From Gemmatimonadota bacterium (GTDB lineage: Bacteria > Gemmatimonadota > Gemmatimonadetes > Gemmatimonadales > Gemmatimonadaceae), in the NCBI GenBank assembly GCA_023249375.1, contig JAHFCT010000007.1, positions 63,177 through 98,981 on the forward strand: 35,805 bases of DNA, given 5' to 3'. A program made the position numbers and the translations under genes. The notes beneath the pieces were generated by a model, which did not search any database, was not told the DNA's origin, and saw only the letters and a program-made list of their open reading frames with translations. Each line of letters begins with the position of its first letter. Position 1 is the first letter of the stretch. Positions 991 through 33,178 of the stretch are shown piece by piece.

Positions 991-1099
991 TGACCAGTTG
1001 GGCGTTAGCCGATTCAACTGTCGTGAACTCGGCATGCAACGCGCCGCCGTACAGTACGCCGTCTTCCGCCGCGCGTAGTTCGTGCGTACTTATCCTTCG

Positions 1100-1888: not shown

Positions 1889-1950
1889 CCGGCGTTCGGT
1901 TCGCTCGATGTCATTCACCGCCCCCGGTGCAGTGCTTTCCTCTAGAATCA

Positions 1951-8543: not shown

Positions 8544-8654
8544 AGAAGCTCCCTGCGAGACGGAGTGCCGAGGGCGATGGTGTGCACACCAAGAGGGAAC
8601 GGCACGAATGCTACTCCGGCGTCCACGCTCACGAAACGCAGCGGGACTGGCATA

Positions 8655-8684
8655 TTGTTCGTTGTTGGAGCAAAATACGAACAA
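8655..8684. promoter_or_regulatory. Inverted repeat in the ROK / uronate isomerase divergent promoter region, candidate operator
   Basis: TTGTTCGT (8655-8662) and ACGAACAA (8677-8684) are perfect inverted 8-mers separated by an AT-richer 14-base spacer, in an otherwise GC-rich 201-base gap between the divergent genes. The 22-base centre-to-centre spacing puts both arms on one face of the helix. The layout suits a dimeric repressor, most likely the adjacent ROK protein acting on the operon and on itself. Confidence 0.5.
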
Positions 8685-8744
8685 ATCGACGCCCCTGCCA
8701 GATCAGCCTGGGGCCCTCCCTTCCGTGCTTTCGCCTCCACTCTC

Positions 8745-14974: not shown

Positions 14975-14993
14975 CTTTCTCCGTGGTTTACGC

Positions 14994-15821
14994 ATGACTT
15001 ACGACCTTCCTTCTCCCACCGAAGCCCGTCGTCTCGAACCGGCTGCGCTTCGCGAGGCATTCCTTCTGCCGGGGTTGTTCCGCAGCGGCGCGCTTACGCT
15101 GCACGTCACGACGCTCGACCGCGCCGTGCTCGGCGGGGTGGTGCCGACTACCGCGTCGATTCCACTCGGCGCGCCTGCGGAACTCGCCGCGGCCTACTTC
15201 ACCGAGCGCCGCGAACTCGGCGTGCTGAACATCGGCGCCGCGGGCACGGTGCGCGTGGATGGCACCGAGTACGCGCTTGGCGAGCGCGACATGCTGTACA
15301 TCGGACGCGGCAACAAGGACATCACGTTCTCCAGCGAAACGGCGAACAACCCCGCGCGCTTTTATCTGGTGAGTTATCCGGCGCACGCGGCGCATCCCGT
15401 GAAACTCGTGCGGCGCGCTGACGCAAACCTCACCATCCTCGGCGCCGCCGAATCCGCCAACCGGCGCGAGTTGCGCAAGTACATCCATCCCGGCGCGGTG
15501 CCGAGCGGGCAGCTCGTGATGGGCGTGACGGAGATGCAGACCGGAAGTGTGTGGAACACCATGCCGCCGCATACGCATACGCGGCGCAGCGAGGTGTACC
15601 TCTATTTCGACCTTCCCGCGGACGCGGCGGTCGTGCACCTGATGGGAGAACCGGACGCCACGCGGTCGCTCATCATCCGCAACGAGGAAGCAGTGCTGTC
15701 GCCCCCGTGGTCCATTCACGCCGGTTGCGGCACGCAGGCGTATGCCTTCTGCTGGGCGATGGGCGGGGAAAATCAGGATTTCGCGGACATGCAGGCCGCG
15801 CCGATTCCTTCTCTGCGATAG
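14994..15821 (+). CDS. kduI: 5-keto-4-deoxyuronate isomerase
   Basis: Cupin-fold isomerase of 275 residues (E. coli KduI is 278) converting 5-keto-4-deoxyuronate to 2,5-diketo-3-deoxygluconate. The expected zinc ligands are all present: H193 and H195 in PPHTHTRR, E200 in SEVYLYF and H242 in WSIHAG. The ending GENQDFADMQ is also family-typical. ATG 14994 gives the canonical N-terminus; frames upstream overlap kduD in another phase. It lies 19 bases after kduD and 8 bases before the DUF4861 gene. Confidence 0.94.
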   Translation: MTYDLPSPTEARRLEPAALREAFLLPGLFRSGALTLHVTTLDRAVLGGVVPTTASIPLGAPAELAAAYFTERRELGVLNIGAAGTVRVDGTEYALGERDMLYIGRGNKDITFSSETANNPARFYLVSYPAHAAHPVKLVRRADANLTILGAAESANRRELRKYIHPGAVPSGQLVMGVTEMQTGSVWNTMPPHTHTRRSEVYLYFDLPADAAVVHLMGEPDATRSLIIRNEEAVLSPPWSIHAGCGTQAYAFCWAMGGENQDFADMQAAPIPSLR

Positions 15822-15829: not shown

Positions 15830-17068
15830 ATGCGAATGTTGCTGCGGACGATACTCGCGGGCGTCGCGTCGTGCGGCGCGCTTGCGCTCGTGCCGGCCGA
15901 TGCGCAGGCGCAGGCGAAGCCCGCCTTGCCAGCGCCGGCGAAGGCCGCACCGGCGCCGGCGTCAGTGCTCGTGCGCGTGGAGAACCCGCTCGCGTTCGCT
16001 CGGCGGGACGAGGTGATTGCGCTCTCGTGGGCGGCGCTCGTCAGCCGCATGCCGACGCTCTCGCCGAGCGCCGTGCGGGCAGTCGATACGGTGTCCGGCG
16101 TCGAGTACGCGGTGCAGGTTGTGAAGTCGGAACAGGATCCGAAGTTCGATTCGTTGCTGGTGCAGCTCGATCTCCAGCCGAGCGAGACACGCGTCATTCG
16201 CATCGAGGGGCAGGCGCCGCGCGTGCCGCCCAAACGGCGCGTATTTGCCGGCCACATCGACGAACGCGATGACCTCGCGTGGGAAAGTGACCGCGTGGCG
16301 TTCCGCACCTACGGCGTCGGGTTGGCCAAGGTCGAACCGCTCGTCAGCAGCGGCATGGACGTGTGGACCAAGCGCACGCGCGACCTCATCGTCGAGAAGT
16401 GGTACGCCAAAGGGCACGACGACTACCACAAGGACACGGGCGAAGGTGCCGACTTCTTTGATGTGGGCACGTCGCTGGGCGCCGGGGGCACCGCGGTGTG
16501 GCGCGACGGCCGGATGGACAAGTCGCGGAACTTCAGCGGATGGCGCGTGATGGCGAACGGTCCCATCCGCGCCGTCTTCGAGCTGCGCTACGAGCCGTGG
16601 ACGTCTGGCGCCGTCACCGTCACGGAAACCAAGCGCATCTCGCTCGACGCCGGCTCCAACGTCAATCGAAACGAGAGCGTCTTCACATTCACGGGCGTTG
16701 ATTCCATTGCCTACGTCACGGGCGTGGTGAAGCGCGCCGGCATTGTGGGCTCGACGAGCCGCGCCAACTCCTGGGCCTGGCTCAGCGGATGGGGGCCAGT
16801 CAGCCCGAAGGGCGGTGGCCACGGCGAGCTCGGCACGGCGGTGCTCCTGCCGCGCGAGCGGCTGCTCGACTGGAAGGAGACCGGCGATCACTACCTCGCC
16901 GTCGCGACGGCGAGGCCCGGCGTGCCGGTGGTGCATTACTTCGGTGCGGGCTGGACGGCGAGCGGCGACTTTGCCGACGTGCGCGCATGGTGGACGTATC
17001 TCGACGACGTGGCGCGCCGCCTGGCCGCTCCCGTTCGAACAATGCTTGTCCCTGCTTCCGGAGAGTGA
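15830..17068 (+). CDS. DUF4861-family exported protein
   Basis: A 412-residue protein with a signal peptide (cleavage near DAQAQ, residue 28) and an Ala/Pro-rich spacer. The mature domain resembles DUF4861, a family I know mainly from polysaccharide-utilisation loci and for which I know no settled activity. Visible features are a mixed-beta sequence with several conserved-looking charged aromatic segments: EKWYAKGHDDYHKDTGEGADFFDVG (in parts), SRNFSGWRVMANGPIRAVFELRY, HGELGTAVLLP, and HYFGAGWTASGDF at the C-terminus. The concentration of His, Asp and Trp suggests a carbohydrate-active enzyme or binding protein. GGGGAC lies six bases before ATG 15830. It sits between kduI and the GH28-CE8 fusion with one untranslated base after it, so it is almost certainly co-expressed in pectin breakdown. 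Confidence 0.7.
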   Translation: MRMLLRTILAGVASCGALALVPADAQAQAKPALPAPAKAAPAPASVLVRVENPLAFARRDEVIALSWAALVSRMPTLSPSAVRAVDTVSGVEYAVQVVKSEQDPKFDSLLVQLDLQPSETRVIRIEGQAPRVPPKRRVFAGHIDERDDLAWESDRVAFRTYGVGLAKVEPLVSSGMDVWTKRTRDLIVEKWYAKGHDDYHKDTGEGADFFDVGTSLGAGGTAVWRDGRMDKSRNFSGWRVMANGPIRAVFELRYEPWTSGAVTVTETKRISLDAGSNVNRNESVFTFTGVDSIAYVTGVVKRAGIVGSTSRANSWAWLSGWGPVSPKGGGHGELGTAVLLPRERLLDWKETGDHYLAVATARPGVPVVHYFGAGWTASGDFADVRAWWTYLDDVARRLAAPVRTMLVPASGE

Positions 17069-17069
17069 G

Positions 17070-19523
17070 ATGCGTGTCGGCGTACTGAGCGTCGCTGCTG
17101 CGGTCCTCGGTGCGTCGCTCGGCGGCGCCTCGGTCGCCGCGGCGCAGGACTCGAGAGCCGTGGTCGAGCCAACGCGGCCGGCCGTGTGCGCCACGATACC
17201 GGCGGAGTTGCTGATCGCAGATGACACCACGGTCGCCGCTGCCGACGAACGGCACAACGACGCCGAGCGCATTCAGCGCGCCATCGATCATTGTGCGGCG
17301 GGGAAGGCGGTGGTGCTGCGCGCGGATGGAGGCAAGCGCGCGTTTCTCACGGGACCGCTCGCGATGCGCCCCGGCGTCACGCTGGTGGTGGACTCCACCG
17401 TGACGCTCTTTGCGTCGCGTGATCCGCGGCTTTACGACCTAGAGCCCGGACTCTGCGGCACCGTGGACGAGAAGGGGCATCACTGCAAGCCGCTTATCTC
17501 TGGGCAGCGCGCGCCAAACGCGGGGTTGATGGGGCCGGGCACCATCGACGGACGCGGCTGGGCCACGGTGCTGGGCACGGCGCCCGCCGAGAGCTGGTGG
17601 GACCTGGCGCAGGACGCCAAGGTGCGCAGCCAGAACCAGAGTTGCCCGCGCCTTATTGTGATGAGCCGGTCGGACAACTTCACGCTCTACGACATTACGC
17701 TGCGGAACTCGCCGAACTTCCACGTCGTCTACGAACACGGCAACGGCTTCACGGCGTGGGGCGTCATCATCGACACGCCCAAGGGTGCGCGCAACACCGA
17801 CGGCATCGATCCGTCGTCGTCAACGAACGTGACGATCACGCGCAGTTTCATTCATACGGGCGACGACGACGTGGCGATCAAGGCCGGCGGTCCCGCCGTG
17901 GCGTCGCACATGACCATCTCGCACAACCACTTCTTCACCGGGCACGGGATGTCCATTGGCAGCGAGACCAATGGCGGCGCCCGGGCGATCCGTGTGTTTG
18001 ACCTGACCATCGACGGTGCCGACAACGGCTTGCGCATCAAGTCGAACGCCAGCCGCGGCGGGCTGGTGGAGGACGTCGAGTACCGCGACATCTGCGTGCG
18101 CGACACCAAAAACGTGATCGAGATGGATTCGCATTACAGCGCGTCGCCGCAGACCACTGGCTCCCTGATTCCGCAGTTCCGCGGCATCCGGCTGCGCGAC
18201 GTGCATATCCTCAGCGGCGGCCAGGTCATCCTCGACGGATACGATGCGGCCCGCCCGCTCGAGCTGTCTGCGGAGAACGTCGTCTTTGATGCTCCGGAGA
18301 AGTTCAAGCTGCGCGCAATGCACGCCACCGTGCAGCTCCTCGGTGCCGGGTGGAATCTTCCGCTCTCGGGCGAAAACGTGCGGGCCGTGCCCGCCCCGAC
18401 GCCTGCGGCATCAGCGCCGGTTGCATGCGCCAATCGTTTTGTGCCGCTGCCGCCGCGGGTGCGTCCGTCGCTCGCGCCGAGCTTTGCCGTCGTCGATTGG
18501 CGCCATCGCGGCGCCGATGGCGACTCGGTGCAAGGCGCGCCGACGTTTCGCTCGCTCGGCGCAGCGCTCACTGCGCAGTCCGTGAACGGCGGCGCGCGCA
18601 CGGTGATCCTCCTGCGCAACGGCCGCTATCGCGAAAAGCTCACCATCGACCGCCCGCGCGTCACCATCATCGGCGAAAACCGCGACAGTACCGTGCTCAC
18701 CTTCGACGCCATCGCCGATACGCCATCGCCGGGCGGCGGAACGTACGGCACGCGCGGCAGCTTCACGCTGCGCGTCGTCGCGCCCGACTTTCGGGCCGAG
18801 CGGCTGACCATCGAGAACGCCTTTGACTACATGGCGAATTTCGCCAAGGCGGCCGATGACCCCACCAAGGCGAGAAACGCGCAGGGTGTGGCGCTCATGC
18901 TCGACCAGGGCAGCGACCGTGCGGCCTTCGTTGACGTGAAGATCACGGGGCATCAGGACACGCTCTTTCCCAACGTCGGCCGGAGCTTCTTCGTGCACTG
19001 TGAGGTGACGGGAAGCGTGGATTTCATCTTCGGCGCAGGGCAGGCCGTCTTTGAAGACTGCGACATCGTGTCGCGCGACCGCGGCAGTGCGACGAACAAC
19101 GGCTACGTGACGGCGCCCAGCACCAAGCAGGCAGAGGCGTTCGGTTTTCTCTTTACGAAAAGCCGGCTGAAAAAGGAACGCGCGTCACTGCCGCCCAACT
19201 CCGTGGTCCTCGGGCGTCCGTGGCACCCGTTCGCGGCGGCCGACGTCAATGGCAGCGCGGTCTTCGTCGACTGCTGGATGGACGACCACATCGGCGCGCG
19301 TGGATGGGACCGGATGTCATCGGTAGACTCGACCGGACTTCGGATTTGGTATGAACCCGAGGGCGCGCGCTTTTTCGAGATCGGTTCCACCGGCCCGGGC
19401 GCGGTGCAGAGTCCCTCACGCCGCGTGCTCTCCGCTGCCGACGTTGCGCGCTTCAGCGTGGCCGCGGTTCTCGGCGGATGGAGCCCGTCGCGCGAATCGA
19501 CGAAGGTGCCAACGTCACGATAG
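17070..19523 (+). CDS. Bifunctional polygalacturonase-pectin methylesterase (GH28-CE8 fusion)
   Basis: An 817-residue exported two-domain pectinase. After a Sec signal peptide (to about residue 25) comes a GH28 beta-helix (about 40-440) with all active-site motifs: NTDGID (242-247), TGDDDVAIK (263-271), GHG (291-293) and RIK (322-324). A Pro/Ala linker (about 440-450) leads to a CE8 pectin methylesterase beta-helix (about 470-805). That domain has GHQDTLF with catalytic Asp630, SVDFIFG with nucleophile Asp651, and LGRPW with Arg716. CE8 removes methyl groups from homogalacturonan and exposes the galacturonate that GH28 hydrolyses, so the order of action is intramolecular. ATG 17070 follows the previous stop by one base, with GGAG about nine bases upstream. 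It is the last gene of the operon. Confidence 0.93.
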   Translation: MRVGVLSVAAAVLGASLGGASVAAAQDSRAVVEPTRPAVCATIPAELLIADDTTVAAADERHNDAERIQRAIDHCAAGKAVVLRADGGKRAFLTGPLAMRPGVTLVVDSTVTLFASRDPRLYDLEPGLCGTVDEKGHHCKPLISGQRAPNAGLMGPGTIDGRGWATVLGTAPAESWWDLAQDAKVRSQNQSCPRLIVMSRSDNFTLYDITLRNSPNFHVVYEHGNGFTAWGVIIDTPKGARNTDGIDPSSSTNVTITRSFIHTGDDDVAIKAGGPAVASHMTISHNHFFTGHGMSIGSETNGGARAIRVFDLTIDGADNGLRIKSNASRGGLVEDVEYRDICVRDTKNVIEMDSHYSASPQTTGSLIPQFRGIRLRDVHILSGGQVILDGYDAARPLELSAENVVFDAPEKFKLRAMHATVQLLGAGWNLPLSGENVRAVPAPTPAASAPVACANRFVPLPPRVRPSLAPSFAVVDWRHRGADGDSVQGAPTFRSLGAALTAQSVNGGARTVILLRNGRYREKLTIDRPRVTIIGENRDSTVLTFDAIADTPSPGGGTYGTRGSFTLRVVAPDFRAERLTIENAFDYMANFAKAADDPTKARNAQGVALMLDQGSDRAAFVDVKITGHQDTLFPNVGRSFFVHCEVTGSVDFIFGAGQAVFEDCDIVSRDRGSATNNGYVTAPSTKQAEAFGFLFTKSRLKKERASLPPNSVVLGRPWHPFAAADVNGSAVFVDCWMDDHIGARGWDRMSSVDSTGLRIWYEPEGARFFEIGSTGPGAVQSPSRRVLSAADVARFSVAAVLGGWSPSRESTKVPTSR

Positions 19524-20645: not shown

Positions 20646-21031
20646 TGGAAGCGTCCTTGAAAGCGGTGCGTGTCGCCGCGCCGCGCGTGTCGAATTGCCC
20701 AACGCGCTCCCCGATCGGAGCGGTAGCGGAACCCACGGAAACTTGCCACCGGCGGAACGTGCCGCTACCCGCGGCCCATCCCTGGGGCCGGGGTCTGGGA
20801 GGAGGCCTCTGGCGTTCTTGGCTCGCCCGACGCATACTCTTGGGGAAATAGTTCGGGCGCGGAACAAATAACCCCCTTTCGCGCAATTGGCGCTTGGATG
20901 GCGAGTCCATCCAGGCGGTTCGCAGGGCAGGGCGCGGGATGGTGCAGAGTGATCGGGCGAGACGGCTGCGTCCGTCTGTTGGCACGGGAACAAATCTTGG
21001 CCGGTTGGCGGCCCACGGAGGAAAGCGACGA
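20646..21031. promoter_or_regulatory. 386-bp intergenic region upstream of susC
   Basis: No gene is recognisable. It must hold the divergent promoters of the reductase gene and of susC. Visible structure: inverted 8-mers GGTAGCGG (20722-20729) and CCGCTACC (20762-20769); an 11-bp stem with one G-U pair at 20891-20901/20907-20917 with a five-base loop; and two copies of GAACAAAT (20862-20869 and 20988-20995), an octamer also found in the candidate operator at 8679-8686. GGAGGA at 21018-21023 is the susC ribosome-binding site. I could not pick a convincing -35/-10 pair. Confidence 0.5.
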
Positions 21032-24000
21032 ATGCGATGGATCCGCAGTTTCTTGACGCTGGTCGTGTGTGTGTGCATCGCCGGAGTCAGCGGCGCGCAG
21101 ACGCCGGCGGCACGCGTGACCGGCACCGTGACCGACCGGAATACGGGAACGCCTATTCCGCTCGTGCAGGTCTCGATTGTTGGCACACGCATCGGGGCCC
21201 AGTCGGACGAAGCGGGCAGATTCACCATTCTGGGCGTACCGGTCGGCGCGCAGCAGCTGCGCGCGATCCGACTGGGCTATGCGCCGGTCGTGATGCCGCT
21301 GCAAGTGGAAGCCGGCCAGGTGCTGACCGTCGATCCCAAGATGCAGGTGACGACGTCGCTGCTGCAGGAACTGGTCGTCGTCGGCTACGGCGCGCAGAAG
21401 CGCAGCGACCTGACGGGATCGGTGGCCAGCGTGAAACCGAGCACCGATCAGTTGCCGGTGTTGACGCTCGAGCAGACGCTGCAAGGGGCCGCGGCGGGCG
21501 TCTCGGTCACGCAGGCCTCGGCGGCACCGGGCGGCGGCATGTCGATCCGCGTGCGCGGCGGGTCGTCGGTGACCGGCAACAACGAACCGCTCTACGTCAT
21601 CGACGGAATGCCCATCAACAATGATGCGGACAACTCGTCGCCGAGTGACGGCGGCCGCGAAGTGACGACGCAGGTGCCGTCGAACCCGCTGGCCACGCTC
21701 AACCCGGCCGACGTCGAGTCGATCGAGATCCTGAAGGATGCGTCGGCGACGTCCATTTACGGCGCGCGCGGCGCCAATGGCGTCGTCCTGATCACGACCA
21801 AGAAGGGCAAGAGCGGCACGATGAAGTTCACGCTGGACAGCTACCAGGGGACGCAGGAAATCGTCCACCCGTACAAGCTGCTCAACGCGCAGGGCTTCGC
21901 GAGTTTCGCCAATGCCTGGTCGGCGGCGAACGGCACGGCCGTGGTCTTTGCCGACACCGCCTCGCTCGTGACCACCGACTGGCAGGACGCGATCATGCGC
22001 AAGGCGCCCGTGAACAACCTGCAGTTGGGCGTCAGCGGCGGCACGACCGGCAAGAATCCCACGCTCTACTCGCTGAGCGGCGGCGTCTTCCGGCAGGACG
22101 GCATCGTCCTCAACTCGACGTTCCGGCGCGTCGCACTGCGCGGCGCCGTTGACCAGCAGGTGGGACCGAAGGCGCGCATCACGAGTACGCTGAGTGTCAG
22201 TCGCGTTTCGAGCGCCTCCGTACCGACGGACGGATCGTTCAATGCCGGCGCCGGCGCCGTGGGTGCCGCGGTGCAGTACTACCCGACGCTCCCGATTCGG
22301 CGCGCGGACGGCACGTACACGCTGATTCAGCTCGACAGCAAGTCGCCGCTCGCCCCGGCCTCGGTGCCAAACCCGGTTTCGATGGCATCGGACGTGAAGG
22401 ACGACCTGTCGGATCAGCGCATGCTCGCCAACGTGTCCGGCGAGTACGAACTCTTCTCCGGCCTGAAGTTCCGCATCACCGGCGGCGCTGACCTCGCGAA
22501 CCGTGCACGGTACACGTACTACCCGCGGACGACGCTGATCGGCAGCCAGGTGAATGGACAGGCGATTCGTGGTTCAACGAACATCACCTCGTTCATCAAC
22601 GAGAACACGCTGAACTACTCGCGGACCTTCGGATCGGACCATCGGATTGACGCGGTGGCCGGATACTCGCGCCAGTCCAACGAGACGCTGCGCGATCTCG
22701 CGCGCAACTCGCAGTTTGTCAGCGACATCGATGGCTATCAGTCCATCGGCAGCGGCACGCAGACCGGCGGTCCGACGGTTTCGTCGGGACACACCAAATG
22801 GACGCTCGCCTCGTATATCGGCCGCGTGAACTACTCGTTCCGCGAACGCTATCTCGTCACGCTGTCGGAACGGCGCGACGGGTCGTCCCGCTTCGGCGCC
22901 GAACACCAGTGGGGATCGTTCCCGTCGGCGGCGTTTGCGTGGCGCGTCTCGGAAGAGCCGTGGATGCAGCGATTCCCGGCCATCGATCAGCTGAAGCTGC
23001 GCGCCTCGGTGGGCTCGGCCGGCAACCCGTCCATTCAGCCCTATCAGTCGCTGGCCCGGCTCACGCAGCAGCAGTACACGCTGGGTGGTACGGTCGTCCC
23101 GGGGTACTATCCCGCCTCGGTGCCGAATCCCAACCTGACATGGGAAACCACGAAGCAGTCGAACATCGGCACCGACATCGGCGTGTGGAACGGCCGTCTG
23201 TCCGTGACGGCTGATGTGTACAAGAAGACCACGAGCAACCTGCTGCTGGCCGTGAACCTGCCGTTGGAATCCGGGTTCTCGACGGCGCTGCAGAACGTGG
23301 GCTCGGTGTCGAACAACGGATTTGAGCTTTCCGCCACCATCGCGATGCTGACGGCGGGTGATCCGCGCGCGCACGGCGTGACGTGGTCGACCACGTTCTC
23401 GTACTCTCGCAACAAGAACAAGGTCCTGGATCTCGGCGGCGTGACGCAGATCTTCGCGTCCAGCGTCAACAGTGACCTCAAGCTCCTCGGCTCCCTGATC
23501 CGTGTGGGACAGCCGATGGGCGTGTTCTACGGATACAAGGTCGACGGCATCATTCGCGATTCCACGGCGCTGCTGGCCATGACGGTGAAGCCGCTGTCAG
23601 GCAGCACATGGCATCCCGGCGACTCGCGCCTCGCGGATGTGAACGGCGACGGCGCCATCACGACCGACGACCGTACGATCATTGGCGATCCGAATCCGAA
23701 GTACACGGGTGGGTGGCAGAACACCGTGGGGTATCGCGGCGTCCGGCTGACCACCTCGGTCGACTTCTCGCAGGGCGGCAAAATCCTGAACCTGAACCTC
23801 GTCCGCCTCGACGGCGGCAGCCCGGCCACCAACATCCTGGCCGATCGCTGGTACGATTCCTGGACGCCGACGAATCTCGATGCCAAGTACCCGCGCGTGA
23901 ATTTCACGCCGGGCTCCATCGGCTCCGAGATGACGAGTGACCTGCTCGAGGATGGCTCGTACGTCCGGCTGCGCGCGGTGACCCTCGACTACGCGCTTCC

Positions 24001-24199
24001 CAAGGACTTGTTCAGCCGCTCCGGGCTCACCGGCGTGCGCGTCTACGTGAGCGGCAGCAACCTGCTCACGCACACCAAGTACAGCGGCTTCAATCCGGAC
24101 GTCAGCAGCCTCGGCCTCGGCAACGTGAACCGCGGCATCGACGTCGGCGCGTACCCGCTCGCGAAGAGCGTCACCTTTGGCATCAACCTGACCTACTAA
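21032..24199 (+). CDS. susC: SusC/RagA-family TonB-dependent outer-membrane transporter
   Basis: Outer-membrane beta-barrel of 1055 residues importing oligosaccharides with its SusD lipoprotein partner. Order of parts: signal peptide (1-22), carboxypeptidase-like regulatory beta-sandwich (about 28-108), TonB-box-like ELVVVGYG (113-120), and a plug domain with the SusC signature DVESIEILKDASATSIYGARGANGV (in parts, 228-252). The barrel follows, ending in GINLTY with a terminal aromatic. ATG 21032 has GGAGGA eight bases upstream and gives a proper signal peptide; the frame upstream to 20894 lacks one. susD follows three bases after the stop. Its place between pectinase genes and the uronate carrier suggests oligogalacturonide uptake, which is inference. 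Confidence 0.93.
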   Translation: MRWIRSFLTLVVCVCIAGVSGAQTPAARVTGTVTDRNTGTPIPLVQVSIVGTRIGAQSDEAGRFTILGVPVGAQQLRAIRLGYAPVVMPLQVEAGQVLTVDPKMQVTTSLLQELVVVGYGAQKRSDLTGSVASVKPSTDQLPVLTLEQTLQGAAAGVSVTQASAAPGGGMSIRVRGGSSVTGNNEPLYVIDGMPINNDADNSSPSDGGREVTTQVPSNPLATLNPADVESIEILKDASATSIYGARGANGVVLITTKKGKSGTMKFTLDSYQGTQEIVHPYKLLNAQGFASFANAWSAANGTAVVFADTASLVTTDWQDAIMRKAPVNNLQLGVSGGTTGKNPTLYSLSGGVFRQDGIVLNSTFRRVALRGAVDQQVGPKARITSTLSVSRVSSASVPTDGSFNAGAGAVGAAVQYYPTLPIRRADGTYTLIQLDSKSPLAPASVPNPVSMASDVKDDLSDQRMLANVSGEYELFSGLKFRITGGADLANRARYTYYPRTTLIGSQVNGQAIRGSTNITSFINENTLNYSRTFGSDHRIDAVAGYSRQSNETLRDLARNSQFVSDIDGYQSIGSGTQTGGPTVSSGHTKWTLASYIGRVNYSFRERYLVTLSERRDGSSRFGAEHQWGSFPSAAFAWRVSEEPWMQRFPAIDQLKLRASVGSAGNPSIQPYQSLARLTQQQYTLGGTVVPGYYPASVPNPNLTWETTKQSNIGTDIGVWNGRLSVTADVYKKTTSNLLLAVNLPLESGFSTALQNVGSVSNNGFELSATIAMLTAGDPRAHGVTWSTTFSYSRNKNKVLDLGGVTQIFASSVNSDLKLLGSLIRVGQPMGVFYGYKVDGIIRDSTALLAMTVKPLSGSTWHPGDSRLADVNGDGAITTDDRTIIGDPNPKYTGGWQNTVGYRGVRLTTSVDFSQGGKILNLNLVRLDGGSPATNILADRWYDSWTPTNLDAKYPRVNFTPGSIGSEMTSDLLEDGSYVRLRAVTLDYALPKDLFSRSGLTGVRVYVSGSNLLTHTKYSGFNPDVSSLGLGNVNRGIDVGAYPLAKSVTFGINLTY

Positions 24200-24202
24200 C
24201 CC

Positions 24203-25780
24203 ATGAGGACGACGATGCGTGCTCGCCTTGCCGGCCTCGCGTTGATCGCGACAGGCCTTCTCCTTGTCGGCTGCAACGACAAGGCCTTTCTCACGGAGGT
24301 GCCGTACGACTTCGTGAGCCCAGTGAACTTCTACAAGACCGCCGGCGATGCGCAGGCGGCCATCAACGGCGTCTACGCCGACTTCATCAACAGCACCGGA
24401 GACAACTACTACGGCCGCAACTTCGTGATGCTCGTCGAGCATCCCACGGAGATGTGGACGTCCCGCCTGAGCGCCACCAACGAGCGCTCCCAGCCGGACG
24501 TGTACACCATTCCGGTGAACCACGCGTACGTGCAGTCGGTCTGGGCGTCGGCGTATGACGCCATCAACCGCGCCAACGCGGTTATCGCCCACGTGCCGGG
24601 CATCACCATGGACACCACGCTGCGCGCGCGCATCGTGGCCGAGGGCAAGTTCCTGCGTGCGCTGCACTACTTCAATCTCGTGCGCATGTTCGGCAACGTC
24701 CCGCTCAAGCTCACCGAGACGACGGGACTCGACAGCCTGTTCCTCACGCAGGCGACGCCGGCGCAGGTGTACGCGCAGATCGTGACCGACCTGCAGCAGG
24801 CCATTGCCGTGCTGCCGTCGTCCAAGACGTATGCCACGGCCGACCAGGGGCGCGCCTCGCGCGGTGCCGCCAAGACGCTGCTGGCCAAGGTGTACCTGCA
24901 GCGCGCCGGCACCGGCAATGGCACGCCGGCCGATTGGCAGGCGGCGCTCGATATGGCCAAGCAGGTGGTGGCCGATGGCGACTATGCCATGGTGGCCGAC
25001 TACAAGTCACTGTTCGATTTCTTTGGCGGCACGGTCGTCGAGAAGAACAGTGAGGTCATCTTCGACGTCCAGAACGTTCGCGCCAATGGTTTGGGCGGGC
25101 GCATCGGCTCGCACGTGGCCCCCAACGCCACGGCCCCGTACCTCGGCGCGTCGACCAACGGATCCTTCGAGGCGGAAAGCACGTTCTACGCCTCGTTCGC
25201 CGCCGCCGACAAGCGACGCGATGGCACGTTCGTCACGTCGTGGGTGAAGGCGGGCGTGACGGTGACGTGGGTCAATGGCGGCGCCGCCACGCAGGCCTAC
25301 GCGAGCGAGACGCCGTTCCCGCGCAAGTTCCTCGATATCCTGATGACGGGAACGGGGGCGGAGGAGCCCAACTACACGATCCTGCGCTATGCCGAAGTGC
25401 CGCTGATGATTGCCGAAGCCGCCAACGAAGTTGCGGGCGCACCGACGGCAGAAGCATACGCGAACATCAACCTCGTTCGCGCGCGCGCCGGCATTCCGAA
25501 CATGACGCCTGGTCTCAGCCAGTCGCTGTTCCGCGACTCGGTCTTTGTCGAACGGCGCTGGGAGCTGTCGCTCGAAGGACCCAACGGTTACTTCGACAGC
25601 CAGCGCAACTGGACGTGGTCAAAGGCCCGCATTGAGGCCAACATGCTCAAGGCGAAGAGCAGCAGCAGCAAGTTCCCGAAGTTCAACGGCGGTCCGATTG
25701 GGGACAAGTACAAGCTGATGCCCATTCCGCAGCGTGCCATCGATCTCAACCCGGGGCTCAAGCAGAATCCCGGCTGGTAA
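24203..25780 (+). CDS. susD: SusD/RagB-family outer-membrane lipoprotein
   Basis: Surface glycan-binding lid for the SusC transporter, 525 residues. A lipoprotein signal peptide ends in LLLVGC, with Cys24 as the lipidation site. The N-terminal SusD-like helices include FYKTAGDAQAAINGVY and WASAYDAINRANAVIAHV (TPR-like region). The RagB/SusD C-terminal domain has YTILRYAEVPLMIAEAANE and VFVERRWELSLEG followed by the basic/aromatic end KLMPIPQRAIDLNPGLKQNPGW. ATG 24203 is three bases after the susC stop; ATG 24215, which has AGGA at a better distance, is an equally plausible start and keeps the lipobox. No ECF sigma/anti-sigma or hybrid two-component regulator accompanies the pair here. Confidence 0.93.
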   Translation: MRTTMRARLAGLALIATGLLLVGCNDKAFLTEVPYDFVSPVNFYKTAGDAQAAINGVYADFINSTGDNYYGRNFVMLVEHPTEMWTSRLSATNERSQPDVYTIPVNHAYVQSVWASAYDAINRANAVIAHVPGITMDTTLRARIVAEGKFLRALHYFNLVRMFGNVPLKLTETTGLDSLFLTQATPAQVYAQIVTDLQQAIAVLPSSKTYATADQGRASRGAAKTLLAKVYLQRAGTGNGTPADWQAALDMAKQVVADGDYAMVADYKSLFDFFGGTVVEKNSEVIFDVQNVRANGLGGRIGSHVAPNATAPYLGASTNGSFEAESTFYASFAAADKRRDGTFVTSWVKAGVTVTWVNGGAATQAYASETPFPRKFLDILMTGTGAEEPNYTILRYAEVPLMIAEAANEVAGAPTAEAYANINLVRARAGIPNMTPGLSQSLFRDSVFVERRWELSLEGPNGYFDSQRNWTWSKARIEANMLKAKSSSSKFPKFNGGPIGDKYKLMPIPQRAIDLNPGLKQNPGW

Positions 25781-25885: not shown

Positions 25886-27289
25886 TTACAGCACGATCTT
25901 GCGGAACTTCGGCACGAGCAGATGCATGATCACCCACGCCGTGACGTAGGCCGACCCGCACACCACGAACAAAATCCCGTAGCCGACCTCGGCCTTTCCG
26001 AGCACCGTGAAGCGCTGGAGCAGTACTCCCGCGCCGCGTGCAATGAGAATGCCACCCACCGCGCCGGCCATGCCACCGATGCCCGTCACCGAAGCGACGG
26101 CCTTCTTGGGAAACATGTCCGAGACGGTCGTGAAGATATTGGCCGACCATGCCTGATGCGCGGCGGTGGCGATGCCGATGGTCCCGACGGCGAGCCACGT
26201 GTTGATGGCACCCAGTCGCGACGCCAGCAGCACCGAGAGTGGCGCGAGCGCGAAGATGAACATCGACAGTTTGCGCGCCTTGTTGGCGTCCATGCCGTCT
26301 TGGATGAAGCGCTTGGGGAGCCAACCGCCGAAGATGGAACCGACCGTGGAAATCGTGTAGACGATGGCCACGGCGAACGGCCAACTGATCACACCCGGAA
26401 TGTCCGCTACCGTGCCGGCGTAGCCGGGATTGGCCGTCAAGAACAGGGCCGTCTTGCGTGAGTTCTCACCGTCGAGGAACGACGGGAGCCAAAACAGATA
26501 GAACCACCAGATCGGGTCCGTCAGAAACTTGCCGACGAAGAACGCCCACGTCTGGCGGAACATCAGCAGGCGGAACCACGACACCTTCACCTTGCCGGCA
26601 TCCGCGCGCTCGGCGTCCTGTTCGTCGACGTCACTGTGAATGAGGTCGAACTCCTGCTGCGACAGCCGCCCGCTCTGCAGCTTGGCGGCGGGCACATCGT
26701 ACATCGTGTACCAGAACGCCAGCCAGGTGAGGCCAATGGCGCCGGTGAGAATGAATGCCCATTCCCAGCCCCACGCCTTCGCGATGAACGGCACCGTGAG
26801 CGGCGCCACGATGGCTCCGACATTCGCCCCCGAGTTGTACAGCCCGGTCGCGAACGCTCGTTCTCGCTTGGGGAACCACTCGGCGACCGTCTTGTTCGCT
26901 GCCGGGAAATTGCCGGATTCGCTGAGGCCGAGGGCAGCCCGCCAGAAGCCGAAGCTCCACGTGTGCTGGCCGAAGGCGTGGCCGATGGCGGCGAGGCTCC
27001 ACGAAATCAGCGACCAGGCGTAGCCCGACTTCGTTCCGACCTTGTCGATGAACTTGCCGGCGAAGAGCATGCCCACGGCATACGCGATTTGAAAGCAAAT
27101 GACGACCGTGGAGTAGTTCAGCTCTTGGATTGCCTTGTCCGGACCAAAGACGCCCGCCGCCGAGAGCACCGGCTTAAGCAGACCTAAAACGTTGCGATCC
27201 AAGTAGTTGATGGTGGTCGCCGCGAAAATCAGCGCGCAGATGGTCCACCGATGGCGGCCGACGCTCTTGTTAATAGATGTGAGGCTCAT
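25886..27289 (-). CDS. MFS transporter, probable hexuronate (galacturonate/glucuronate) symporter
   Basis: Major facilitator of 467 residues with about 12 transmembrane segments, of the anion:cation symporter subfamily (ExuT, DgoT, GarP). Early motif TINYLDRNVLGLLKP resembles the ExuT-type TINxxDR signature. LGLSESGNFPAANKTVAEWFPKRERA follows TM4, and a charged central loop (QEFDLIHSDVDEQD) separates the halves. It would carry monomeric uronates or related sugar acids across the inner membrane, complementing SusC/D at the outer membrane. ATG 27287-27289 lies 94 bases from the divergent gntR start. Its predicted promoter is overlapped by the palindrome at 27350-27366, so GntR control is likely. 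It converges with susD without a convincing terminator between them. Confidence 0.85.
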   Translation of the reverse strand: MSLTSINKSVGRHRWTICALIFAATTINYLDRNVLGLLKPVLSAAGVFGPDKAIQELNYSTVVICFQIAYAVGMLFAGKFIDKVGTKSGYAWSLISWSLAAIGHAFGQHTWSFGFWRAALGLSESGNFPAANKTVAEWFPKRERAFATGLYNSGANVGAIVAPLTVPFIAKAWGWEWAFILTGAIGLTWLAFWYTMYDVPAAKLQSGRLSQQEFDLIHSDVDEQDAERADAGKVKVSWFRLLMFRQTWAFFVGKFLTDPIWWFYLFWLPSFLDGENSRKTALFLTANPGYAGTVADIPGVISWPFAVAIVYTISTVGSIFGGWLPKRFIQDGMDANKARKLSMFIFALAPLSVLLASRLGAINTWLAVGTIGIATAAHQAWSANIFTTVSDMFPKKAVASVTGIGGMAGAVGGILIARGAGVLLQRFTVLGKAEVGYGILFVVCGSAYVTAWVIMHLLVPKFRKIVL

Positions 27290-27383: not shown

Positions 27384-28118
27384 ATGATACGAACCAAACA
27401 CTCAAACTCGCGGTCCGAATCGCCAGTCCTTGGCAAGAAGTTGCCACAAGAACTCGCGGAGCGCATCCAGCAGAAGATCCAGGATGGCGCGATGCGTCCA
27501 GGCGATCGGCTTCCCTCGATTGCATCACTGGCCACGGACTATGGCGTCGGCGCGCCGACCGTACGCGAGGCGCTGAAGCGGCTGGAGATTGCCGGCGTCG
27601 TTCGCATTCGTCACGGTTCCGGTGTGTACGTGCGCCGGCACGAGGACGCGATGCTCGTCACGAGCCCCGTGCTGACGCAGCAGCTCTCGAAAAAGGTGCT
27701 GCTCGACCTCGTCGACGCACGCACCGCCATTGAAGTGACGGCCGCCGGACTCGCCGCGGTGAACGCGTCGAGCGCGCAGCTCGACGAAATGCAGCGGCTG
27801 CTGGCCGAGGCCGGCGCTCAGCTGTCCGATGATGACGTGCTCAACCAGGTCAACATGGCCTTCCACCGCGAAATCGCGGTCGCGTCGGGCAATGGCGTCT
27901 TTGCGCAGCTCCTCGAAGTGCTGACGAACGTCTTCGCGCGGGAGCAGCGCTTGATTCTCGACATCCAAGATTCGCGCCGCGAAGACCACGCACAGCATCT
28001 CGCCATCTACGAAGCCCTGCGCGCGCGCCAGCCTGACCGTGCGCGCGAGCAGATGACGGCGCATCTCGCCAAGGTGCGACGCGATCTGGAACAGTGGGAT
28101 TCGGTGACGGGAGTCTAG
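27384..28118 (+). CDS. GntR-family transcriptional regulator, FadR subfamily
   Basis: Repressor-type regulator of 244 residues. The winged helix-turn-helix is at about 20-86 (RPGDRLPSIASLATDYGVGAP, TVREALKRLEIAGVV, RHGSGVYV). The FCD ligand domain is at about 105-235, with likely metal/carboxylate ligands in NMAFHREIA (H161), EDHAQHLAIYEAL (H205) and MTAHL (H228 region). FCD regulators such as UxuR, ExuR and GntR sense sugar acids. It opens an operon, with the LarA-like gene starting seven bases after its stop, and diverges from the MFS carrier. The palindrome just upstream is its probable operator. Effector unknown: mannonate, gluconate, fructuronate or KDG are reasonable guesses. Confidence 0.88.
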   Translation: MIRTKHSNSRSESPVLGKKLPQELAERIQQKIQDGAMRPGDRLPSIASLATDYGVGAPTVREALKRLEIAGVVRIRHGSGVYVRRHEDAMLVTSPVLTQQLSKKVLLDLVDARTAIEVTAAGLAAVNASSAQLDEMQRLLAEAGAQLSDDDVLNQVNMAFHREIAVASGNGVFAQLLEVLTNVFAREQRLILDIQDSRREDHAQHLAIYEALRARQPDRAREQMTAHLAKVRRDLEQWDSVTGV

Positions 28119-28125: not shown

Positions 28126-29397
28126 ATGACAGCCGCCGCCTCGCCAGGCCTGTTCGCCGCTTCGTCGCCAGGCCACCGCGTCGCGCCCGCCGAGGTGCAC
28201 GCGCTCGTCGCGCGGGGGCTCGCGGCGCTGCCGCTCGACGGAAAGCGCGTGCTCGTCATCATTCCCGATGGCACGCGCACGATGCCGATGCCGCTGATGT
28301 TCGACGCCCTCGAGGACGCCCTCGGCGCGCGCACGACGGCGCTCGACTTCCTCGTCGCACTCGGCACGCATGCGCCGATGACCGATGCGCAGCTTTCTGC
28401 GCTGGTTGGACGGCCGGTGGTCGATGGCGTCGCCGGCTCGCGCAAGGTGATGAATCACCGGTGGGACGACCCAGCGACGTTTGCGACGCTTGGCACCATC
28501 CCCGCCGCCGAGATCAACGCACTGACCGACGGGCTGATCGCGCAGGATGTCACGGTCGCACTGAACAAGTCCGTCTTCGACTACGATCAAATCCTCATCT
28601 GCGGGCCGGTTTTTCCGCACGAGGTTGTCGGGTTCTCTGGCGGCAACAAGTATCTGTTCCCGGGCATCGCCGGTCCCGAGATCATCAACTTCACGCACTG
28701 GCTCGGCGCGCTGCTCGGCAGCTTCCATGTGATTGGCACGGGCAAGACGCCGGTGCGGGCGGTCATCGACCGTGCCGCACAACTGCTCGACGTGCCGCTC
28801 GCGTGCCTGGCGCTCGTCGTGTCGCGCGCCGGCGTCGATGGACTCTTCATCGGGAGCGCGGAAGCGGCGTGGCGCGCCGCGTCGGAGCTGTCGGCGCGTC
28901 AGCACGTCATTTACGTGGACCGGCCGTACCAGCGCGTGCTCTGCGTGATGCCGACGATGTACGCCGACGTGTGGACGGCGGGGAAGGGGATGTACAAGCT
29001 GGAGCCCGCGGTGGCCGATGGCGGCGAGGTGGTGATCTACGCGCCGCACATCACCGAAGTGAGCTACACGCACGGGAAGCAGATTGACGAAGTGGGCTAC
29101 CACTGCCGCGACTACTTCCTCAAGCAGTGGGAGCGCTTTGGGCACTACCCGGGCGGCGTGCTCGCGCATTCGACGCACGTGAAGGGGCTTGGCACCTACG
29201 ACGCGGACACGGGCGTCGAATCGCCGCGCATTCGCGTGACGCTCGCCACGGCGATTTCCGAAGAGCGCTGCCGGCGCATCAACCTCGGCTATCTCGACCC
29301 CGCCACCGTGGACGTCGCGGCGTGGACAGGACGCGAGCACGAGGGCGTGCTCGTCGTGCCGCACGCCGGTGAGATGCTGTACCGGCTCAAGAAATGA
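28126..29397 (+). CDS. LarA-family nickel-pincer-nucleotide racemase/epimerase homologue
   Basis: A 423-residue protein of the lactate racemase (LarA, DUF2088) superfamily. The catalytic set of LarA is recognisable in order: DGTR (48-51), H82 in LGTHAPMT, H165 in FPHEVVGFSGG, K175 in SGGNKYLFPG and H191 in NFTHWLG. The spacing from H165 to K175 to H191 (10 and 16) matches that of His174, Lys184 and His200 in Lactobacillus LarA, where the Lys carries the nickel-pincer cofactor. The family includes racemases and epimerases of 2-hydroxy acids, among them a D-gluconate 2-epimerase. No cofactor genes (larB, larC, larE) are in the window. Neighbours (sugar-acid kinase, Gnd, GntR) suggest an aldonate C2-epimerase, for example mannonate/gluconate; this is inference. 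The family call is firm. Confidence 0.85.
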   Translation: MTAAASPGLFAASSPGHRVAPAEVHALVARGLAALPLDGKRVLVIIPDGTRTMPMPLMFDALEDALGARTTALDFLVALGTHAPMTDAQLSALVGRPVVDGVAGSRKVMNHRWDDPATFATLGTIPAAEINALTDGLIAQDVTVALNKSVFDYDQILICGPVFPHEVVGFSGGNKYLFPGIAGPEIINFTHWLGALLGSFHVIGTGKTPVRAVIDRAAQLLDVPLACLALVVSRAGVDGLFIGSAEAAWRAASELSARQHVIYVDRPYQRVLCVMPTMYADVWTAGKGMYKLEPAVADGGEVVIYAPHITEVSYTHGKQIDEVGYHCRDYFLKQWERFGHYPGGVLAHSTHVKGLGTYDADTGVESPRIRVTLATAISEERCRRINLGYLDPATVDVAAWTGREHEGVLVVPHAGEMLYRLKK

Positions 29398-29425: not shown

Positions 29426-30508
29426 ATGCAATACGGTTTGAACATTCGCCAAGACGCGGCGCTCGATATTCTCTCACTCGGTGCACTTGTGCACCGGCTG
29501 GATCCGGGCATCATCCCGTTCCGCAAGGCGACGGAGTGCCGCATCCATGTGAGTGGCGGCGAGTTCAACGTCGCGGCGAATCTCGCGGACTGCTTTGGTC
29601 AGCGCACCGGCATCGCCAGCGCGATGGTGGGCTACCCGATTGGCGACTTGATCGCCGAGCGAGTGCGGGCGATGGGCGTGCGGCCGTTCTACCGGCAGTT
29701 CGCGCACAACGGCGTGAATGGGCCGAACATGGCCACGGTGTACAGCGACCGCGGCCACGGCGTGCGTGCCCCCGAGGTGTTCTACAACCGGTCAAACGAA
29801 GCCGCGGCGCAGTTGAAGCCCGGCGACTTCGACTGGTCGTCCATTTTCGGCGCGGGCGTGAAGTGGTTCCATAGCGGCGGCATCTTTGCCGCGCTCTCGC
29901 CGACCACCGGCGAATTGATCATCGAAGCGATGAAGGCGGCCAAGGCCGCGGGCGCCATCACGTCGTTTGACCTGAACTTCCGCGCCAAGCTCTGGAACAT
30001 CTGGGGCGGCGAGGCGAAGGCGGCAGAAGTAATCGCCCGCATCGTGGAACACGTGGACGTGCTCGTGGGCAACGAGGAGGATCTGCAGAAGGGGTTGGGC
30101 ATTCCTGGTCCAGACGTCTCGTCGCACTCGGCGCTCGATACCGCGCCCTTCGTCGCGATGATCGGCGCGGTGGTGAAAAGGTTCGCGCGCGTGAAAGTCG
30201 TGGCCACCACGCTGCGCGAGGTGCATTCGACCAACCGGCACTCGTGGAGCGCCGTGGCGTGGATCGACGGAGAGGTGTACGCCGCACCAACGTGCGAACT
30301 GGATGTCTATGATCGCGTCGGCGGCGGTGACGGCTTTGCGGCCGGCCTCGTCTACGGACTGCTCAATGGCGAACCCCCGGCCGACGCGGTGCGGCTGGGC
30401 TGGGCGCACGGCGCGCTCGTCACGACATTCCCCGGCGACACGACGATGGCGACCGTCAATCAGGTGCGCGCGTTCGCCGCGGGCGGCTCGGCGCGCATTC
30501 AGCGATGA
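29426..30508 (+). CDS. kdgK: PfkB-family sugar-acid kinase, probable 2-keto-3-deoxygluconate kinase
   Basis: Ribokinase-fold kinase of 360 residues. The N-terminal substrate motif is SGGEFNVAANLADCFG; SFDLNFRAKLW in the middle is typical of KDG kinases; NEEDLQ follows; and the PfkB C-terminal signature DRVGGGDGFAAGLVYGLL holds the catalytic Asp. It would phosphorylate KDG from KduD to 2-keto-3-deoxy-6-phosphogluconate, but a related aldonate or ketoaldonate is possible. ATG 29426 has GGAG about seven bases upstream and starts a normal family N-terminus; the frame upstream overlaps larA's end. The KDPG aldolase needed next is not in the window. Confidence 0.8.
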   Translation: MQYGLNIRQDAALDILSLGALVHRLDPGIIPFRKATECRIHVSGGEFNVAANLADCFGQRTGIASAMVGYPIGDLIAERVRAMGVRPFYRQFAHNGVNGPNMATVYSDRGHGVRAPEVFYNRSNEAAAQLKPGDFDWSSIFGAGVKWFHSGGIFAALSPTTGELIIEAMKAAKAAGAITSFDLNFRAKLWNIWGGEAKAAEVIARIVEHVDVLVGNEEDLQKGLGIPGPDVSSHSALDTAPFVAMIGAVVKRFARVKVVATTLREVHSTNRHSWSAVAWIDGEVYAAPTCELDVYDRVGGGDGFAAGLVYGLLNGEPPADAVRLGWAHGALVTTFPGDTTMATVNQVRAFAAGGSARIQR

Positions 30509-30563: not shown

Positions 30564-31715
30564 ATGAAAGTCGTCGTCGACCAGGACATCCCGTACCTGA
30601 AGGGAGTGCTCGAGCCGCACGCGGAGGTGCAGTACCTGCGCGGACGGGCCATTGGCGCCGCTGATGTCCGCGACGCGGACGCGCTGATTGTCCGCACGCG
30701 CACGCGTTGCGATGCGCCGCTGCTGCAGGGGAGCCGGGTGCGCTTGATCGCGTCGGCAACCATTGGCTTTGACCACATCGACACCGCGTTCTGCGCGGCG
30801 AACGGCATCACGTGGACGAATGCGCCGGGGTGCAACTCGTCGTCCGTGCGTCAGTACGTGGCGGCGGCGCTGCTGCACGTGGCCGAGCGACGCGAGCTCA
30901 CCTTGGCTGGCATGACCATCGGGATTGTCGGCGTCGGTAACGTCGGGTCAAAGGTGGCGGACCTCTGCCGAGCGCTCGGCATGACGGTGCTGCTGAACGA
31001 CCCGCCGCGCGAACGGCGCGAAGGGAAAGATGCGTTTGTCTCGCTCGCGGAAATCGTCAAGCGCGCCGACATCGTCACCTTCCACGTGCCGCTGCAGTCC
31101 GATGGCGTCGACAGGACGCTGCATCTCGTCAATCGCGACCTGCTTGCGGCGTTTCGCCCGCAGCAGATGCTGATCAACACGTCGCGGGGCGAAGTCATTG
31201 ATGGCGCGGCGCTCAAGGCGGCGTTGCTCGAAAAACGGCTGGCGGCGTGCGTGCTCGATGTGTGGGAACACGAACCCGGGCTCGACTTGGACGTGATGCG
31301 CCTCGTGAACATCGCCACGCCGCACATCGCCGGCTACTCCGCCGACGGCAAGGCGAACGGCACGGCAATGAGCGTGCAGGCGCTAAGCAGACACTTTGGT
31401 CTTGGACTCGACACCTGGTATCCCGCTGATGTGCCACCGCCCGTCAATGCGCTTGTTGCAGCGGGGACGACGGGCCTGACCACACAGCAGGTCATCGCCA
31501 GTGTCGTGCACACCACGTACGACATCGCCGCTGACGACGTGCGGCTTCGCAGTGACCCGTCATCGTTCGAACGACAGCGCACCGAACATCCGTTCCGTCG
31601 CGAATTCCATAACTACGCCATCGTGCCCAGCGCGCTGCCCGCCGAGGCTGCACGAATACTGCTGGCGTTGGGATTTCAGGCCGCCGGACCATCAGCCGCA
31701 CCGCACCCTCAGTGA
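30564..31715 (+). CDS. pdxB: PdxB-like 4-phosphoerythronate dehydrogenase / D-2-hydroxyacid dehydrogenase
   Basis: D-isomer-specific 2-hydroxyacid dehydrogenase of 383 residues with PdxB architecture. The split catalytic domain contains CNSSSVRQYVAAAL, the NAD-binding turn is GVGNVG, and the catalytic Arg, Glu and His are in NTSRGEVID, DVWEHEP and TPHIAGYS. A C-terminal segment of about 100 residues fits the PdxB dimerisation domain. PdxB oxidises 4-phospho-D-erythronate in pyridoxal-phosphate synthesis. Here it sits between a sugar-acid kinase and Gnd, and its stop overlaps the gnd start (GTGA), so it may act on a sugar acid or its phosphate instead. GGAC-like sequence only before ATG 30564; 55 bases separate it from kdgK. 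Confidence 0.8.
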   Translation: MKVVVDQDIPYLKGVLEPHAEVQYLRGRAIGAADVRDADALIVRTRTRCDAPLLQGSRVRLIASATIGFDHIDTAFCAANGITWTNAPGCNSSSVRQYVAAALLHVAERRELTLAGMTIGIVGVGNVGSKVADLCRALGMTVLLNDPPRERREGKDAFVSLAEIVKRADIVTFHVPLQSDGVDRTLHLVNRDLLAAFRPQQMLINTSRGEVIDGAALKAALLEKRLAACVLDVWEHEPGLDLDVMRLVNIATPHIAGYSADGKANGTAMSVQALSRHFGLGLDTWYPADVPPPVNALVAAGTTGLTTQQVIASVVHTTYDIAADDVRLRSDPSSFERQRTEHPFRREFHNYAIVPSALPAEAARILLALGFQAAGPSAAPHPQ

Positions 31716-33178
31716 ATACCATGCCCGCATCCGCAGACTTCGGACTCGTCGGCCTCGCCGTGATGGGCGAGAACCTTGTCCTCAATATTGAGAGCCGCGG
31801 CTACACCGTAGCCGTGTACAACCGGACCGTCGCCAAGGTCGATGAGTTCATGAACGGCCGAGCGCGCGGCAAGAAGTTTGTCGGCGCGCACTCCATTGCT
31901 GAGTTGGTCGCCTCGCTCAAGCGTCCGCGCAAGGTGATGTTGATGGTCAAGGCCGGCGCGCCGGTGGATGACTTCATCGAGCAGATCATCCCGCATTTGG
32001 AACCCGGCGACATCATCATCGACGGCGGCAACTCGCACTTCCCCGATTCCATTCGGCGAACGTACTATCTAGAGTCGAAGGGATTCCTGTTCATCGGAAC
32101 CGGCGTGTCGGGCGGGGAAGAAGGGGCGCTGAAGGGACCGTCCATCATGCCGGGCGGGTCGCCGGCGGCGTGGCCGCACGTGAAGCCGATCTTCCAGGCG
32201 ATTTCGGCGAAGGTCGATGACGGCACGCCGTGTTGCGACTGGGTGGGCAACGACGGTGCCGGCCACTTCGTCAAGATGGTGCATAACGGCATCGAGTACG
32301 GTGACATGCAACTCATCTGCGAGTGCTATCAGCTGATGAAGGAAGGGCTAGGCATGTCCAACGAGGAGATGCACCACGTGTTCGCGGCGTGGAACGAGGG
32401 TGAGCTGCGGTCGTATCTCATCGAGATCACGCGCGACATTCTCAGCCACCGGGAGAAGGGAAGGAAGCACACGGTGGACGTGATCCTCGACACCGCGGGC
32501 CAGAAGGGAACGGGCAAGTGGACCAGTGTCTCGGCGCTCGATCTCGGCGTACCGATGACGATGGTGTCGGAGGCGGTCTTCTCGCGCTGCCTGTCGGCGC
32601 TCAAGCACGAACGCGTCGCGGCGGCCAGGATCCTCAAAGGCCCGGCGAAAAGGAAAACGATTATCGGCAAGAAGCAGTTCGTGGAAGACATCCGGAAGGC
32701 GATGTACGCCTCGAAGATCGTGTCGTACGCACAGGGCTACATGCTGATGCGCGAAGCGGCCAGGGAATACCGCTGGGACATGAACTACGGCGGCATCGCG
32801 CTGCTTTGGCGTGGCGGCTGCATCATTCGCAGCGAGTTCCTTGGCAAGATCAAACTGGCGTACGACAAGAACCCGGCGCTCAGCAACCTGCTGCTCGATT
32901 CGTATTTCAAGAAAGTCATGAAGGACTGCCAGGAGTCGTGGCGAAAGGTCGTGGCCACGGCGGCACTGCTGGGCATTCCGGTGCCGTCGATGAGTTCGTC
33001 GCTCGCGTTCTACGACGGGTACCGGCACGCGTGGCTTCCGGCGAACCTGCTGCAGGCACAGCGCGACTACTTTGGCGCGCATCAGTATGAACGCGTCGAC
33101 CGCGCGCGCGGCGAGTTCTTCCACACCAACTGGACGGGACGAGGCGGTGACACCGCGTCGTCCACGTACCTGGCGTAG
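31712..33178 (+). CDS. gnd: 6-phosphogluconate dehydrogenase, decarboxylating
   Basis: Full-length Gnd of 488 residues converting 6-phosphogluconate to ribulose-5-phosphate and CO2 with NAD(P)+. Signatures present: GLAVMGENLVLNI (nucleotide fold), IIDGGNSHF, SGGEEGALKGPSIMPGG, the catalytic Lys in GHFVKMVHNGIEYGDMQ, ILDTAGQKGTGKWT and the C-terminal arm YFGAHQYERVD...FFHTNWTG. The start is GTG 31712, overlapping pdxB, or ATG 31721 three codons later. Its presence in a GntR-controlled operon with a kinase recalls gluconate operons (gntR-gntK-gntZ). A housekeeping copy may exist elsewhere; this one is probably dedicated to sugar-acid catabolism. Confidence 0.94.
   Translation: MNTMPASADFGLVGLAVMGENLVLNIESRGYTVAVYNRTVAKVDEFMNGRARGKKFVGAHSIAELVASLKRPRKVMLMVKAGAPVDDFIEQIIPHLEPGDIIIDGGNSHFPDSIRRTYYLESKGFLFIGTGVSGGEEGALKGPSIMPGGSPAAWPHVKPIFQAISAKVDDGTPCCDWVGNDGAGHFVKMVHNGIEYGDMQLICECYQLMKEGLGMSNEEMHHVFAAWNEGELRSYLIEITRDILSHREKGRKHTVDVILDTAGQKGTGKWTSVSALDLGVPMTMVSEAVFSRCLSALKHERVAAARILKGPAKRKTIIGKKQFVEDIRKAMYASKIVSYAQGYMLMREAAREYRWDMNYGGIALLWRGGCIIRSEFLGKIKLAYDKNPALSNLLLDSYFKKVMKDCQESWRKVVATAALLGIPVPSMSSSLAFYDGYRHAWLPANLLQAQRDYFGAHQYERVDRARGEFFHTNWTGRGGDTASSTYLA

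Follow-up and report, generated by a model that had tools for sequence, protein, structure and literature searches.

A GntE-like LarA homologue, most likely a D-mannonate/D-gluconate 2-epimerase, in a pectin utilisation locus of a Gemmatimonadota bacterium

Which reaction does a LarA homologue (LarAH) catalyse when it is encoded among sugar-acid genes, and from where would it obtain its nickel-pincer nucleotide (NPN) cofactor? These questions were raised by a gene in a 35,805-nucleotide stretch of a Gemmatimonadota genome (hereafter the window). The initial annotation had noted an NPN-type active site, a sugar-acid context and no cofactor genes, and had proposed a substrate uncharacterised in the superfamily. 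The genes of the window considered here were as follows.

1082..1888, + strand: SDR, D-mannonate oxidoreductase-like, fructuronate reductase candidate (best NCBIfam match NF006132, 238 bits, below the cut-off of 281)
1927..3792, + strand: UxaE-like protein, divergent, tagaturonate 3-epimerase family (PF16257, 29.7 bits, gathering threshold 27.1, partial match)
8565..10229, + strand: UxaC, glucuronate/galacturonate isomerase (NF002794, 511.6 bits, cut-off 387; PF02614)
10226..14216, + strand: pectate lyase, GH28 and GH88 genes (PF09492, PF00295, PF07470)
14213..15821, + strand: KduD-like and KduI genes (TIGR01832, 331 bits, cut-off 338.85; NF002091, 374.8 bits, cut-off 250)
16743..19523, + strand: GH28 plus pectinesterase protein (PF00295, PF01095)
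20894..25780, + strand: SusC-like TonB receptor and SusD-like lipoprotein (PF07715/PF13715; PF07980)
25886..27289, − strand: MFS transporter, galactonate-transporter-like, divergent from the operon (PF07690; TIGR00893 is the best NCBIfam match, below cut-off)
27384..28118, + strand: GntR/FCD regulator (PF07729, PF00392)
28126..29397, + strand: LarAH, predicted NPN-dependent D-mannonate/D-gluconate 2-epimerase, GntE-like (PF09861, 4NAR, E-V-A-H signature)
29426..30508, + strand: PfkB sugar kinase, predicted gluconate or mannonate kinase (PF00294; nearest solved relative 2AFB, KDG kinase)
30564..31715, + strand: PdxB-type 2-hydroxyacid dehydrogenase, 4-phosphoerythronate dehydrogenase family (NF001309, 443.7 bits, cut-off 434)
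31712..33178, + strand: Gnd, 6-phosphogluconate dehydrogenase (decarboxylating) (TIGR00873, 763.7 bits, cut-off 426.7)

The LarAH frame was intact (423 aa) and matched the Lar_N domain (E 1.7e-23, 83.4 bits, curated cut-off 23.3). It was the sole Lar_N protein of its own genome (120 contigs, 95.9% complete). The residues singled out by the initial annotation were all found as described, D48-G-T-R51, H82, H165, K175 ten residues on and H191 a further sixteen on. They aligned with D38, R41, H73, H154, K164 and H180 of Thermotoga maritima GntE2 and with their counterparts in LarA, and alignment with both proteins also put K287 at a catalytic position. R51, K175 and H191 are thereby the equivalents of the NPN-binding R75, K184 and H200 of the LarA superfamily, and D48, H82, H165 and K287 those of the catalytic D72, H108, H174 and K298. 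Of 83 relatives, 81 keep D48 and R51 (alignment gaps account for the remainder), 82 keep H82, and all keep H165, K175, H191 and K287, so that the full residue set of an NPN-type site is present and each position is kept in at least 81 relatives. In the predicted mechanism, the nickel-pincer nucleotide would be tethered to K175 with H191 on the nickel, H82 and H165 would form the acid-base pair, and C2 of an open-chain hexonate would be inverted.

LarAH was then placed within the superfamily. Gluconate 2-epimerase (GntE) is recognized by E, V, A and H at LarA positions F175, F176, W358 and T359 (PMC11770544). This signature was complete in LarAH (E166, V167, A347, H348) and nearly invariant across its clade; A347 and H348 were assigned through alignment to A351 and H352 of GntE2, not directly to LarA. 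The AlphaFold2 model (mean pLDDT 94) has the LarA-type two-domain fold. Its top fold match (Z 50.9, rmsd 1.9 over 403 residues) was 4NAR, identified as T. maritima GntE2 (PMC7583248), which was also the best solved relative by sequence (219 bits); Z was about 32-36 for lactate racemase structures and about 27 for malate racemase. In a tree built on region 38-306 without GntE1, a 100/100 split set LarAH, its relatives, GntE2 and one LarAH18 apart from LarA, Mar2 and two further LarAHs. LarAH thus groups with hexonate epimerases, not with a lactate-specific or non-catalytic clade. Long branches separate its 84-member clade from GntE2 and LarAH18 and leave the branching order inside the hexonate clade open.

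Scores on all NCBIfam LarAH models were under the curated cut-offs. The closest model was NF052594 (LarAH18 hexonate epimerase), with 181.8 bits for a cut-off of 500; GntE2 itself scored 179.2 bits, which places LarAH beside the LarAH18 family and not inside it. On the lactate racemase model NF033504 it scored 70.2 bits (cut-off 460), and its loop is EV, not FF. On residues, scores and tree, a lactate or malate racemase was rejected. Identity to the nearest characterised enzyme was about 34-36%. Identity to Acidobacteriota and Chloroflexota proteins (67-71%) was higher than to orthologues of its own order (53-55%), which suggests that the gene was acquired by horizontal transfer. Other LarA homologues of the order were found in four genomes (loci L088-L091 of G110, G146, G101 and G131); the two inspected, L090 and L091, have a glutamine aligned at the nickel-ligand histidine and an R-V loop.

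The gene families mark the window as a locus for pectin utilisation, and the neighbours of LarAH are pectin and hexuronate genes, in agreement with the sugar-acid rather than lactate context first noted. The genes of the operon gntR-larAH-pfkB-pdxB-gnd are separated by 7, 28 and 55 bp in turn, and the last two overlap by 4 bp. The pfkB start at 29426 was chosen by homology (the mechanical ORF starts at 29369). Pectin would be converted to galacturonate by the lyases, GH28, GH88 and esterase, galacturonate to tagaturonate by UxaC, tagaturonate to fructuronate by the UxaE-like protein and fructuronate to mannonate by the SDR. The UxaE-like and SDR assignments are weak; the former protein also matches the PDB isomerase 9kcs (E 5.7e-7). 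Mannonate would then be epimerised to gluconate by LarAH, gluconate phosphorylated to 6-phosphogluconate by PfkB, and the latter converted to ribulose-5-phosphate and CO2 by Gnd. With LarAH as mannonate/gluconate 2-epimerase and PfkB as kinase, the encoded steps would lead from galacturonate to ribulose-5-phosphate without a break. UxuA, the one mannonate dehydratase searched for, was not found in the four kinase-carrying genomes (G000, the genome of the window, and G007, G098 and G138), so that mannonate dehydration by UxuA would be unavailable there. In genome G014, where Lar_N had no match, UxuA is encoded next to a PfkB of 35% identity.

From the signature, model and gene context we infer, with a probability of roughly 70%, that LarAH is an NPN-type GntE-like enzyme acting on this pectin route to the pentose-phosphate pathway, most likely as a 2-epimerase in the direction D-mannonate to D-gluconate. 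That LarAHs can epimerise D-gluconate and D-mannonate at C2 was established in 2020 (PMC7583248). The GntE signature and the fit to the pathway thus speak against an uncharacterised substrate, and LarAH is most likely an enzyme of an already described type. This widens the GntE-type nickel epimerases by a large clade from uncultured bacteria of soil and sediment, and puts one member into a complete gene set leading from pectin to the pentose-phosphate pathway, in which UxuA is lacking.

Neighbourhoods of the 83 relatives were compared; the counts are minimum values because many loci are incomplete. A mannonate-oxidoreductase-type SDR was present in at least 51, gnd in at least 29, pfkB in at least 19, UxaE in at least 16 and UxaC in at least 11. 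Locus L018, on which the UxaE, SDR and gnd identities were verified, has the order LacI, UxaE, SDR, LarAH, gnd, pfkB. Of 28 genomes compared within the order, four have a PfkB orthologue at 74% identity or more (74-78%), and these are precisely the four that encode an EV-type LarAH (Fisher p 5e-5, a value that ignores kinship and concerns a gene picked after the loci had been viewed). PfkB may be a gluconate (or mannonate) kinase; this role is read from context, as its nearest solved relative is a KDG kinase. A plain KDG kinase serving the KduI/KduD branch is possible, but the LarAH-linked PfkB tracks LarAH. A second PfkB, 45% identical, is encoded just upstream of the window (C10:61974-63074). 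The PdxB-family dehydrogenase, above its curated cut-off, lies between the kinase and the 6-phosphogluconate dehydrogenase. KguK/KguD-type use of 2-ketogluconate by PfkB and PdxB was rejected since the PdxB-like gene does not regularly accompany LarAH (it is in only three of the compared neighbourhoods). A PPi-dependent-phosphofructokinase-like gene was seen near LarAH in seven loci (L084:3633-4940 and six others), never alongside PfkB, and may fill its kinase slot.

The congener G007 carries the same operon (L108:2840-8648), with regulator, PfkB, PdxB and Gnd 54%, 78.5%, 61% and 73% identical to those of the window. Its LarA homologue is a LarAH18 (646 bits on NF052594), only 32% identical to LarAH and located between pfkB and pdxB; LarAH precedes pfkB. 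This is a non-orthologous swap. Two different LarAHs serving one gene set supports, short of proof, that LarAH18 does the same reaction, and the swap between two congeners backs the putative hexonate-epimerase assignment of that family.

The order of the two steps could be reversed, although we consider this unlikely. PfkB would then phosphorylate D-mannonate and LarAH would epimerise 6-phosphomannonate to 6-phosphogluconate, as in extracts of Lactobacillus suebicus, where such activities exist with genes so far unassigned (PMC6978723); the pair would supply the missing mannonate kinase and 6-phosphomannonate 2-epimerase. The strict co-occurrence of PfkB with EV-type LarAHs in the sampled order is in line with this order of steps, as is the high KM of GntE enzymes for unphosphorylated mannonate (17 mM for the nearest characterised enzyme of LarAH; PMC7583248). 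R368 and H351 are also common to LarAH and the G007 LarAH18 and not to GntE2, but the match at these positions depends on aligning distant sequences, and GntE2, GntE1 and LarAH15 all act on unphosphorylated hexonate. If phosphorylation did come first, LarAH would be a nickel-pincer enzyme whose substrate is a phosphorylated sugar acid, and such enzymes would be widespread across hexuronate loci of several phyla, Acidobacteriota and Chloroflexota among them. Because PfkB is a constant partner, two purified proteins would suffice to test directly whether the epimerase or the kinase acts first.

It is less probable still, and in our judgement quite improbable, that LarAH acts on a truly different substrate, such as another aldonate or uronate-derived acid. 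The long branches that part the 84-member clade from GntE2 and LarAH18, and the differing positions H316, H351 and R368, would allow it. Against it, the specificity positions E/V/A/H match those of GntE, and the operon neighbours define a gap between mannonate and 6-phosphogluconate that is filled by this epimerisation.

The statement that cofactor genes are missing held for the window, in which no larB, larC or larE was found among the scanned genes, but is not supported as biology. The genome search proposed by the initial annotation returned larB (264 bits), so that the genome is not devoid of lar cofactor genes. This larB (C91:17698-18324, L006) stands alone, with no other lar gene nearby, between dus-like and GGDEF-like genes (families assigned by eye). 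LarC (models TIGR00299 and PF01969) and LarE (TIGR00268) were not found in the genome; four weak LarE matches (21-33 bits) were rejected as they sit in long unrelated frames. Among the congeners searched, LarC was present in 8 of 8 and LarE in 9 of 10. Synteny was examined with the congener G001, whose larC is at L105:6324-7445 and larE at L124:7614-8396. Contig C90 of the window's genome is collinear with L105:1-5360, stopping there at its last base, 35,523, and base 1 of C38 aligns at L124:6777. Each gene would start roughly 0.8-1.0 kb past a contig end, and the sequence beyond these ends had no collinear match in the genome. As both loci fall past contig ends and nearly all congeners have the genes, their absence is uninformative. 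It is most simply explained by assembly gaps, although it would be somewhat improbable for two unlinked genes both to be missed by chance; nothing in the assembly points to true loss, and the idea that the organism lacks the cofactor genes was rejected.

Thirteen genomes of more distant LarAH carriers were sampled; LarC and LarE were both present in 11 and both missing in two. A literature search for larA without larBCE returned the reverse case only, genomes with larBCE and without larA (PMC11796402). Seven congeners (G001-G006 and G008) resemble these genomes: they have LarC and LarE, and no Lar_N protein was found in them at E 0.001. That the species is truly without larC and larE, LarAH being an apoenzyme, an NPN scavenger or NPN-independent, is very improbable: G098, which has a LarAH orthologue, is also without both genes, and neither had a match at the completeness given above, but LarB is encoded, the collinear sequence ends just short of both loci, and LarAH keeps all NPN-binding residues. 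The cofactor would probably be made by the host's own LarB, LarE and LarC, the last two presumably encoded in unassembled sequence.

Compared with known systems, LarAH is closest to GntE2 (LarAH20, 4NAR), with which it shares fold, catalytic and NPN residues, the E..AH positions, the W283/K287 motif and a hexuronate/gluconate gene context. GntE2 differs by S for V after the E, N for H351 and E for R368. LarAH18 (NF052594, 'nickel-dependent putative hexonate epimerase') has the same E-V loop and A-H positions but is the distant protein described above. LarA (5HUQ) and Mar2 (6D6Z) have the superfamily fold and the NPN and catalytic residues in common with LarAH, with FF and YK in the loop instead of EV. 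The Thermotoga kinase of the gluconate context is presumably of a different family (FGGY), in contrast to PfkB here. We take the LarA-type gntE of Thermotoga to be TM0442. The Discussion of PMC6978723 names TM0042 (aldose 1-epimerase-like) as this gene, so that the search for an L. suebicus candidate may have started from an incorrect query gene. As cited in PMC6978723, Rodionova et al. (2012) proposed a galacturonate-mannonate-gluconate-ribulose-5-phosphate route for Thermotoga and noted homologues of gntE in Acidobacterium and Terriglobus. From that account, UxaC, UxaE, fructuronate reductase, GntE, a kinase and 6-phosphogluconate dehydrogenase are common to this route and the window, which differs from it by a kinase of the PfkB type and an added PdxB-like dehydrogenase.
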